Below, one piece after another: positions 3,876-5,894 of a stretch of DNA of 64,000 bases. Positions within the stretch are counted from its first letter, which is position 1, and the number at the start of each line of letters is the position of its first letter. The DNA comes from Gluconobacter oxydans. Lineage in GTDB: Bacteria > Pseudomonadota > Alphaproteobacteria > Acetobacterales > Acetobacteraceae. Below the pieces are notes generated by a model that had not been told where the DNA came from, did no database searches, and worked only from the letters and a program-made list of their open reading frames with translations. Made by a program: the position numbers and the translations under genes. Location: assembly GCF_006539685.1 (NCBI RefSeq), contig NZ_BJNM01000005.1, forward strand, positions 1 through 64,000. The letters run 5' to 3'.

Positions 3876-3904
3876 GGCCCTGAGATTTCCTTGACAGGAA
3901 ACTC

Positions 3905-3932
3905 TTAACAAAAATGATTTGTTATTTGTTAA
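3905..3932. promoter_or_regulatory. AT-rich inverted repeat upstream of the Hint-domain gene
   Basis: TTAACAAA (3905-3912) and TTTGTTAA (3925-3932) form a perfect 8-bp dyad with a 12-bp spacer. A nested AACAAA/TTTGTT pairing lies inside. The patch is strongly AT-rich within GC-rich DNA and lies about 185 bp before the ATG at 4116. It is a candidate operator or promoter-upstream element. Confidence 0.35.
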
Positions 3933-4115
3933 CTACTATGGGAGATATAGGGTCTCCAGGGGGTTAACATCCTGTTTCGGTCCTGACCGGCAACAGCTGC
4001 AGGGTGTTCCTGACCTGTCACTACAATCAGGCACTCTTTCCAATCCGACATGCGGGTCTCGGAATGGAAGGAACCTCCAGCTCTAAAAACCTGCCGTTAT
4101 ACAGGAACTCAGCAC

Positions 4116-5894
4116 ATGACCCGCGAATATCACGCTCCATCCGACTGCTATTACGGCCGTCCCTTCCATTCTCCCTCCTACGACGCGAACGGCTGCTCCT
4201 ACAGTCCGCATCACGCCCAGTCTGCTTCCGGCCTGACGGTCAGCGGCTGTGGCCGGGTTCTGTATGTCCTCAATGGCGATTCCATCACGAAGACATCCAT
4301 TGTGAATGGCGGCACCGTCGTTGTCGGATATGGCGGGTCATCCAGCTACGCCACGATCAGCCGTGACAGCCTTCAGGCCATCATTTCGGGCGGCACGTCC
4401 TCCGACACGACGGTCGGAAGCGGCGGCATCGAAGCCGTTTACACCAACGGCAGCACGACGCAGACCGTCCTCAACGGCGGCGATCAGGTCGTGTTCGGCG
4501 GCACCGCCACCAACACGACAGTCGGCAAGGGCAGCACGCAGTACGTGCTGACAGGCCAGGCAAACGGCACGACCATCGGCGCCGGCGGCACGCTTGCCGT
4601 CTCGAGCTGGGGCACCGTCAGCAACGCCTCGGTTCTGAACGGTGGCACGCTGGTCGTGAATTTCGGCTCCGTCGTCCAGAACACGAAGCTCTACACGGGC
4701 AGCACGCTCGACCTGAACTTCCTGCGCTACAACAGCAGCACGACGGCCACGATCAGCAACGACTATCTGGTCATCACCAGCGATCACGGGAAGATTTCCT
4801 TCAAGCTGGCTGACAATTACAGCGGCTACGCAGGGCAGACCGTGACCCTGTCGCGCGACAGCGACGGCAGCACGCTCGTCCATCTCCAGGAAGTCTGCTT
4901 CCTGCCGGGCACCCTGATCGCCACACCCGATGGCGAGCGCGCCGTCGAGACGTTCGAGATCGGCGACAGCGTCGTCACCCCGGACGGCCAGACCCGCACC
5001 CTGACCTGGGTTGGCCGCGCCCATGCCCGCGTCCGCGCCGGTCTCCCCGACGACCAGGCCGGCTATCCAGTCCGCATCCGCGCCAATGCGATCGCCGATG
5101 GTGTTCCGCATACCGACCTTCTGGTCACCGGCGAGCACTGCCTGTTCCTCGATGGCGGCTTCATTCCAGCCCGCATGCTGGTCAACGGTGCTTCCATCGT
5201 CTGGGATTACGCCATCACGGCCTACGACTACCTGCATGTCGAGACGGACGGCCATTCCGTCATTCTCGCCAACGGCCTGGCAACGGAATCGTATCTCGAC
5301 ACCGGCAACCGTCGCAGCTTCACGCAGACCGGCCGCGTCGTTGCCTTCGGTGGCGCCCCCGCAAGCTGGGAACACGATGCCGCTGCAGAACTGGTGACCG
5401 ATCGCGCCCGCGTCGAGCCGGTCTGGACGGCCATCGCAGCCCGCAGCAACGTGACCGCCGCTCCCGCAGCGACGACCACGGATGCCGAACTACGCCTGCA
5501 GTTGCCCTGCGGAACGCTGCTCGCCCCGAGCCGCATCGCCAATGACCGTGCCGTCTTCAGCCTGCCGGACGGTGTCAGCGATGTCCGCATCCTGTCCCGC
5601 ACCAGCCGTCCCTGTGACGTGGTCGGACCGTTCCTCGACGACCGCCGCGACCTCGGCGTTCTGATCGGTGACGTGACGCTGTTCGAAAGCGCCTCCACCC
5701 GTCAGGTCACCACGCACCTCACGACGGACGCGGATGGATGGCATGGCCGTGAAGCCGCCCCCATGCGCTGGACGGCCGACAACGCCACGCTGAGCCTCGA
5801 CACCATGACAGCAGCGGTCCTGACCCTGCAGATCGTGGCAGCCGGCCCCTACACCGTCGAAGACACCACCGCTCCGGTCGCCCGGCTCGCCTGA
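4116..5894 (+). CDS. AIDA-like repeat protein with C-terminal Hint domain
   Basis: A 592-residue protein in two parts. Residues about 45-240 are low-complexity Gly/Thr/Ser/Asn repeats (NGGTVVVG, SGG..SDTTVGSGG, NGGTLVVN) typical of the strand-loop-strand beta-helix passenger repeats of AIDA-type adhesins. A Hint-type domain follows, starting at Cys261 (CFLPGTLIATPDG), with the conserved LLVTGEHCLF and a later LATESYLDTGN segment. This matches the Hint_2 group common in alphaproteobacteria. Hint domains self-process at the residue before the cysteine. There is no Sec signal peptide, beta-barrel translocator or TPS domain, so export, if any, needs another route. ATG 4116 is chosen because AGGAA lies 8 nt upstream; an in-frame ATG at 4050 has no such site. 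The last about 180 residues are unassigned. Confidence 0.85.
   Translation: MTREYHAPSDCYYGRPFHSPSYDANGCSYSPHHAQSASGLTVSGCGRVLYVLNGDSITKTSIVNGGTVVVGYGGSSSYATISRDSLQAIISGGTSSDTTVGSGGIEAVYTNGSTTQTVLNGGDQVVFGGTATNTTVGKGSTQYVLTGQANGTTIGAGGTLAVSSWGTVSNASVLNGGTLVVNFGSVVQNTKLYTGSTLDLNFLRYNSSTTATISNDYLVITSDHGKISFKLADNYSGYAGQTVTLSRDSDGSTLVHLQEVCFLPGTLIATPDGERAVETFEIGDSVVTPDGQTRTLTWVGRAHARVRAGLPDDQAGYPVRIRANAIADGVPHTDLLVTGEHCLFLDGGFIPARMLVNGASIVWDYAITAYDYLHVETDGHSVILANGLATESYLDTGNRRSFTQTGRVVAFGGAPASWEHDAAAELVTDRARVEPVWTAIAARSNVTAAPAATTTDAELRLQLPCGTLLAPSRIANDRAVFSLPDGVSDVRILSRTSRPCDVVGPFLDDRRDLGVLIGDVTLFESASTRQVTTHLTTDADGWHGREAAPMRWTADNATLSLDTMTAAVLTLQIVAAGPYTVEDTTAPVARLA

Follow-up and report, generated by a model that had tools for sequence, protein, structure and literature searches.

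How might a protein built of AIDA-type repeats reach the cell surface if it carries neither an autotransporter barrel nor a signal peptide, and what is the role of the Hint domain that follows the repeats? The question is raised by a gene of Gluconobacter oxydans located in the window, that is, the whole stretch of 64,000 nucleotides analysed here. AIDA/TibA-type repeat proteins are displayed by E. coli via a built-in barrel, and O-heptosylation by AAH/TibC-type enzymes is a modification of barrel-bearing autotransporters. The components considered below, AIDA repeats, heptosyltransferases of this type (BAHT), Hint_2 and T1SS, are all already known singly. With moderate confidence, we favour a barrel-less surface protein whose beta-helix would be heptosylated, which a T1SS would export without a signal peptide, and which the Hint domain would cleave before Cys261.

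Gene and domain anatomy

The gene occupies positions 4116..5894 of the forward strand (start ATG 4116, stop 5892-5894), exactly as in the first-pass annotation, and encodes 592 aa. In the alignment, ATG 4116 is common to all five Gluconobacter orthologues (L093–L097), and 5' of it single-base gaps break the common frame in these five; for both reasons the longer ORF that opens at 4050 is an unlikely alternative. The orthologues keep the whole frame at 83–96% identity, and the closest named relative, Gluconobacter sp. P1C6_b, is 96% identical across the Hint domain and the module after it. The tetranucleotide AGGA at 4103..4106 (forward strand), 9 bases before ATG 4116, is by its position a possible ribosome-binding site. 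Further upstream, at 3891-3933, a block opening with TTGACA is largely conserved among the orthologues and is possibly a promoter or operator. Elsewhere in the window, three ORFs at 41-1106 together give, by eye, a dioxygenase-like reading of the phytanoyl-CoA type, reflecting either a pseudogene or sequence errors.

The protein, all of whose parts are given here on the forward strand, begins with a head of residues 1-32 (4116..4211) that has pLDDT below 50 and is not a signal peptide. The head contains Cys11 and Cys27 (window 4146-4196; DCYYG and GCSY in the window protein), both conserved in the five orthologues. An AIDA/TibA-type beta-helix of approximately residues 36-200 (4221..4715) follows, recognised by TIGR04415 and PF16168 repeats and by its fold, and then, in the predicted model, a beta-strand segment and linker (residues 201-260, 4716..4895) ahead of the predicted cleavage site. 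The Hint_2 domain (residues 260-396, 4893..5303) is followed by a conserved, beta-rich C-terminal module, hereinafter Cmod (approximately residues 403-578, 5322..5849), and by a variable tail (residues 579-592, 5850..5891). Both families exceed their curated cut-offs: TIGR04415 matches the 592-aa protein in 4 stretches with E 2.7e-14 (52.9 bits, cut-off 30), PF16168 yields 30.9 bits (cut-off 27), and PF13403 Hint_2, 130.4 bits (E 9.1e-38, cut-off 28.4). The joining of AIDA-type repeats to a Hint domain, initially read from the letters and translations, is thus borne out by curated profiles.

The AlphaFold2 model, built with 61 sequences, has a mean pLDDT of 80.6 and a pTM of 0.52, at which the arrangement of domains in the full-length model is unreliable. 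The beta-helix on which the first reading depended is present in it as a regular structure at approximately residues 36-200, with block-mean pLDDT of 91–97 at residues 51-170 and 68–84 at the ends, while residues 234-244 and 246-258 of the linker have pLDDT below 50; the Hint domain is modelled confidently. The top PDB match in Foldseek is 4q1q, a TibA fragment glycosylated by TibC (E 2.8e-7, 1.0 A, 165 columns, 38% identity), followed by the self-associating protein 4kh3, antigen 43 chains, and then BIL/intein domains matching the Hint part. The segment preceding the Hint domain was also compared with the natural C-terminus of the Hint-less relative L186, which is alike by eye; a small profile missed L186 and BLASTP scores were weak, and this candidate was rejected.

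No autotransporter barrel is found in the window ORF by Pfam and NCBIfam, and PF03797 has no match genome-wide, the same search being positive in E. coli and Caulobacter. A crude hydrophobicity score, applied as a rough screen to the window protein and those of 80 loci (81 in total) and not equal to a signal-peptide predictor, is 0.65 for the window protein, indicating no hydrophobic leader; among seven chosen exported controls, six score 1.95 or more and one scores 0.58. The score exceeds 1.9 in 6 of the 81 proteins, two proteins being without a score. As the orthologue alignment also reveals no signal peptide missed upstream, the absence of both barrel and signal peptide claimed in the first-pass annotation holds, and an autotransporter with either of them overlooked was rejected on the basis of the profile searches, the leader score and the orthologue start.

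Relatives and heptosyltransferases

The genome containing the window (G000; 2.7 Mb, 107 contigs) has nine Hint_2 matches, i.e., eight paralogues besides the window protein, with frames derived from profile-match positions. Six proteins (the window protein and L013–L017) share Cmod after the Hint domain, and three (L010–L012) constitute a second type; alignment A6 has three type 2 rows that were trimmed at approximate positions, for which reason the Cys column of A6 was not used. All 15 TIGR04415 matches of this genome lie within four Hint frames: eight in L014, three in the window gene, three in L012 and one in L010. The search for paralogues with the same pairing, proposed together with the first reading, has therefore succeeded in the own genome, and it did so in relatives as well. 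TIGR04415 matches 23 and PF16168 matches 21 (E<=0.01) of 80 scanned passengers (the window and 79 of 80 loci, L169 being too short); the repeat–Hint pairing is thus recurrent, while the majority of Hint passengers belong to other kinds.

Several type 2 genes show further features. A single 1750-aa ORF at L011:6781-12030 combines an ExeM/NucH-like nuclease region (146.9 bits vs a cut-off of 300), Hint_2 and a GT1 glycosyltransferase, and contains repeated GYxD...GWA segments (by eye). Glycosyltransferase genes lie downstream of the Hint genes L010 (7560-9245) and L012 (6480-8441), and a glycosyltransferase related to these two is fused to a Hint domain at L175:4026-7505.

In 60 Acetobacteraceae genomes, 45 TIGR04415 matches fall into 23 frames, of which none has a barrel and 16 have a Hint domain in the same frame. 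The seven Hint-less frames are heterogeneous: L187 overlaps a frame with a Hint domain approximately 1.9 kb further on, L179 ends in unknown bases, two are short (72 aa in G030:C7, and 122 aa), L185 is a HlyD-type-looking protein with two repeat-like units, and L184 and L186 have other architectures. The frame at L184:4034-6100, partly composed of unknown bases, has AIDA-like repeats without Hint or barrel and a C-terminus that is RTX-like by eye.

The genome also encodes two proteins of the heptosyltransferase family TIGR04414 (563.6 and 546.2 bits, cut-off 200). The one on contig C55 is similar to TibC with E 1e-119. The catalytic and iron-finger residues named in passages of PMC4358343, Asp110, Arg286, Trp305 and four Cys, are all matched in the C55 protein (aligned to TibC) and in the C17 protein (via the C55 alignment), and the spacing of the iron-finger Cys, 3-16-12, is the same as in TibC. 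The same passages report BAHT genes beside autotransporter genes, and no acetic acid bacterium is among the species that they name; for Acidiphilium sp. C61, a passage of PMC7142476 lists a single autotransporter gene together with two genes for autotransporter modification.

TIGR04414 is present in 15 of the 60 genomes and TIGR04415 (E<=1e-6) in 12: ten genomes have both, two have repeats alone, five have BAHT alone and 43 have neither (one-sided Fisher p 2e-6, a value that, like the other Fisher p value given below, overstates independence because the genomes are related). All 15 BAHT genomes have Hint_2, and all 15 have the T1SS ABC transporter. PF03797 barrels (E<=0.001) are found in nine of these 15 genomes vs 26 of the 45 others.

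We also observe proximity of the genes. At L176, which is the same locus as the named L137 (Acetobacter farinalis), a 1757-aa AIDA–Hint frame opens directly after the stop of the heptosyltransferase ORF on the same strand, and at L175 the heptosyltransferase gene is flanked by AIDA–Hint genes on both sides. At L178, two heptosyltransferase copies and two Hint genes are arranged divergently, and the passengers of the latter match the repeat model with scores under its cut-off. Of 24 heptosyltransferase matches, at least four have a Hint gene within 3 kb and at least six have one within 10 kb, these counts being lower bounds as a subset of neighbourhoods was fetched; 0.46–0.84 and 1.5–1.85, respectively, are expected (P 0.0013–0.011 and 0.0044–0.012, with neighbouring copies not independent), the ranges reflecting different ways of counting gene bodies. 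The 80 named loci, read with flanks of up to 8 kb, include a heptosyltransferase gene in five cases (L128, L137, L166, L167, L168), the passengers of which exceed the TIGR04415 cut-off in three cases and have no match in two. Over the stretches read in the own genome, neither heptosyltransferase gene has a Hint gene next to it.

Candidate export route

The first-pass annotation had proposed looking for T1SS or TPS genes in the vicinity; its idea of a self-cleaving, perhaps type I-exported surface protein is partly supported. No such gene is recognised among the called ORFs of the window, whose starts were inspected, and one HlyB/HlyD-like operon is present elsewhere in the genome. The operon, on contig C13 (L022:9199-18876), encodes an ABC transporter, HlyD, a Sel1-repeat protein, a 981-aa glycosyltransferase with two domains (GT2 plus GT1) and a 330-aa protein. 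The ABC protein has transmembrane and ATPase domains and no peptidase domain in Pfam, and is below the T1SS cut-offs (best HlyB, 517.8 vs 725.55 bits; LssB, 456.2 vs 693.1 bits), and HlyD exceeds that of TIGR01843 (317.6, cut-off 208.65). Apart from the own genome, 45 genomes bear this ABC; in the loci compared from 40 of them, some of which stop at contig ends, HlyD is beside ABC in all 40, Sel1 in 37, and the glycosyltransferase and the 330-aa gene in 29 each. This five-gene cluster, a T1SS-like operon with a glycosyltransferase, recurs across Acetobacteraceae, genomes without Hint_2 included.

Hint_2 (E<=1e-15) and the T1SS ABC (E<=1e-80) are each found in 46 of the 60 genomes; 39 genomes have both, seven ABC only, seven Hint only and seven neither (p 0.012, again in related genomes). 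The ABC matches in G015, G028 and G038 are only 40–41% identical, and G028 has eight Hint matches. ABC is present in 33 of the 35 genomes bearing Cmod at E<=1e-6, and in 24 of 24 at E<=1e-20. Shared ancestry of the genomes could yield such co-occurrence of Hint or Cmod with ABC. Physical linkage of T1SS and Hint genes, considered as a further line of evidence, was rejected: a Hint gene is near the operon in two of the 40 loci, with 1.05 expected (P 0.28), which is the chance level, and in the own genome no Hint gene adjoins the operon in the stretches read. No RTX family is among the Pfam or NCBIfam matches of the window protein up to E 1; RTX nonapeptide repeats are common in T1SS substrates and not universal.

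By elimination and co-occurrence, a T1SS is the best candidate for export. The same protein with the same processing might instead leave the cell by a route other than the HlyB/HlyD-like T1SS, e.g., via an unrecognised outer-membrane system, which we consider unlikely. The chance-level proximity, as well as the seven genomes with Hint and no ABC and the seven with the opposite pattern, agree with such a route, while the absence of a signal peptide from the protein and of a PF03797 barrel from the genome argues against it, as do the Hint matches, which average 5.52 in a genome with ABC vs 0.71 in one without.

Proposed Hint processing and comparison with known systems

The cleavage Cys proposed initially is the one that opens the Hint domain, residue 261 with the codon at 4896..4898 (forward strand), the predicted nucleophile and cleavage point. 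It is Cys in all 86 compared proteins, which comprise the best 80 of 568 confirmed related stretches, the window protein and five own paralogues. Hint block B, Thr338-x-x-His341 (5127..5138, forward strand), is followed by the invariant Cys342 (5139-5141), and in alignment A4 Cys261, Thr338, His341, Cys342, His374 and Glu391 are each conserved in 61 of 61 sequences; Thr338 and His341 belong to the search pattern that gathered the relatives, and the other invariant residues do not. The domain matches inteins and BIL domains by fold, and the BIL domain 2lwy is the sole PDB chain at E below 0.01 by sequence. The block F/G position reads ANGLATES in the window protein (by eye), without the C-terminal His-Asn, and Thr-Glu-Ser stands in place of the terminal His-Asn of splicing inteins in 58, 61 and 60 of 61 sequences of A4, respectively (placed by eye). 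B-type BIL domains are described in passages of PMC7765530 as lacking the C-terminal His-Asn and undergoing N-terminal cleavage without splicing, and a passage of PMC2362128 distinguishes a further bacterial Hint subgroup, some members of which have signal peptides. Given Thr-Glu-Ser instead of His-Asn, N-terminal cleavage without splicing is expected here by analogy, and the Hint domain is probably self-cleaving.

Cmod modelled alone has pLDDT 81.9 and pTM 0.70. NCBIfam gives no match for it at E<=0.1 and Pfam none in the region, and it has no clear fold relatives (best Foldseek E 6.5e-4 with TM 0.35, best VIA-align Z 5.9). Identity of Cmod to that of the window is 35–51% in the rows of alignment A5 besides the five orthologues, and the passengers are variable, with 10% mean column identity. 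The last residue is Ala in 80 of the 86 proteins; the tail, with pLDDT below 50 at residues 585-592, is a possible export signal. Cmod matches also occur in short frames of approximately 145–270 aa: L177:1-435, directly before a Hint gene; G030:C9:104-442 and 682-1101; and G030:C2:8619-9032, adjoining another full Cmod match. One more fragment is at G000:C11:87862-88128.

In the reading that we favour, the passenger (approximately residues 36-200) would be O-heptosylated in the cytosol by the AAH/TibC-type enzymes, and the protein would then be exported in one step, most likely via the conserved HlyB/HlyD-like T1SS; Cmod and the Ala-ending tail, at its C-terminal end, would direct this step. 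Outside the cell, it would fold, the Hint domain would form a thioester at Cys261, and cleavage would follow. Because Glu-Ser stands at the position of the splicing-intein His-Asn, the N-terminal bond alone would be cut, parting the glycosylated helix from the Hint domain and the export module, and the mature helix may then either be set free or be transferred to an acceptor at the surface.

The second outcome leads to a hedgehog-like transferase, in which the Cys261 thioester would be passed to a hydroxyl or amine of a surface sugar or lipid, anchoring the helix, with Cmod presenting the acceptor. Val before an intein Cys slows simple hydrolysis, and Val precedes the Hint Cys in 57 of the 86 proteins, consistent with transfer; type 2 Hint domains are tied to glycosyltransferases (the fusions in L011 and L175, the downstream genes at L010 and L012), and the weak structural matches of Cmod include beta domains of carbohydrate enzymes. 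The long conserved module after the Hint domain also resembles Hog proteins, in which, according to passages of PMC7765530, a sterol-recognition region follows the Hint part. Yet Cmod has no clear fold match, and no Hog chain is among the matches of the sequence profile; overall, this reading seems rather improbable to us. The combined scenario, in which a T1SS would export the heptosylated adhesin and the Hint thioester would both cut it and link it by a covalent bond to a sugar or lipid of the surface, as a bacterial counterpart of hedgehog-type anchoring, is more doubtful still.

Could the protein be a decayed or cytosolic autotransporter passenger, with Hint as a passive leftover? This is very improbable, as the whole frame is kept in five orthologues at 83–96% identity, Cys261, Thr338, His341 and Cys342 are retained in 61 of 61 sequences, and 568 related stretches have been confirmed. 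We give the least weight of all to a polymorphic-toxin-like protein whose Hint domain would free a C-terminal toxin, as in some MafB/CdiA proteins: intein-like or BIL domain wording is used for such systems in parts of the literature, but Cmod is conserved (35–51% identity) while the passengers vary (10%), it has no NCBIfam match, and the gap of 150 bases to the next called gene is too small for an immunity gene.

AIDA–Hint proteins, with a Hint domain replacing the barrel and, in some relatives, a heptosyltransferase gene adjoining, are not found in the open-access literature among the matches listed. The repeats and the enzyme family known from barrel-bearing autotransporters pair here with Hint, in a bacterial family where none of the 23 repeat frames has a barrel, and the adjoining heptosyltransferase genes of relatives hint at an undescribed way to make such adhesins. 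If the favoured reading is true, type V secretion is not required for making and displaying glycosylated beta-helix adhesins, and processing after export becomes a likely function for the many Hint_2 proteins that acetic acid bacteria have. What bacterial Hint domains do in proteins other than toxins could then be tested in harmless industrial bacteria.

Among known systems, T1SS-exported adhesins and enzymes likewise have no N-terminal signal, and the genome has ABC and HlyD; the window protein differs from them in having no RTX match and in that the Hint and transporter genes are unlinked. With Hog proteins it shares the layout of an N-terminal functional part, a Hint domain and a conserved C-terminal region, but for Cmod no Hog relationship was found. 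The Hint fold, Cys1, block B TxxH and the absence of the C-terminal His-Asn (the last read by eye) are common to type B BIL domains and the window protein, whose Hint domain, in contrast, belongs to Pfam Hint_2 and is followed by a fixed C-terminal module of approximately 190 aa. As in the pairing of AIDA-I, TibA and Ag43 with AAH/TibC, some relatives have a heptosyltransferase gene preceding or flanking the repeat gene. Finally, AIDA-type repeats and a predicted beta-helix passenger are shared with AIDA-I/TibA autotransporters (type Va), whereas in place of their signal peptide and C-terminal barrel, both absent here, the window protein carries a Hint domain and a conserved module.
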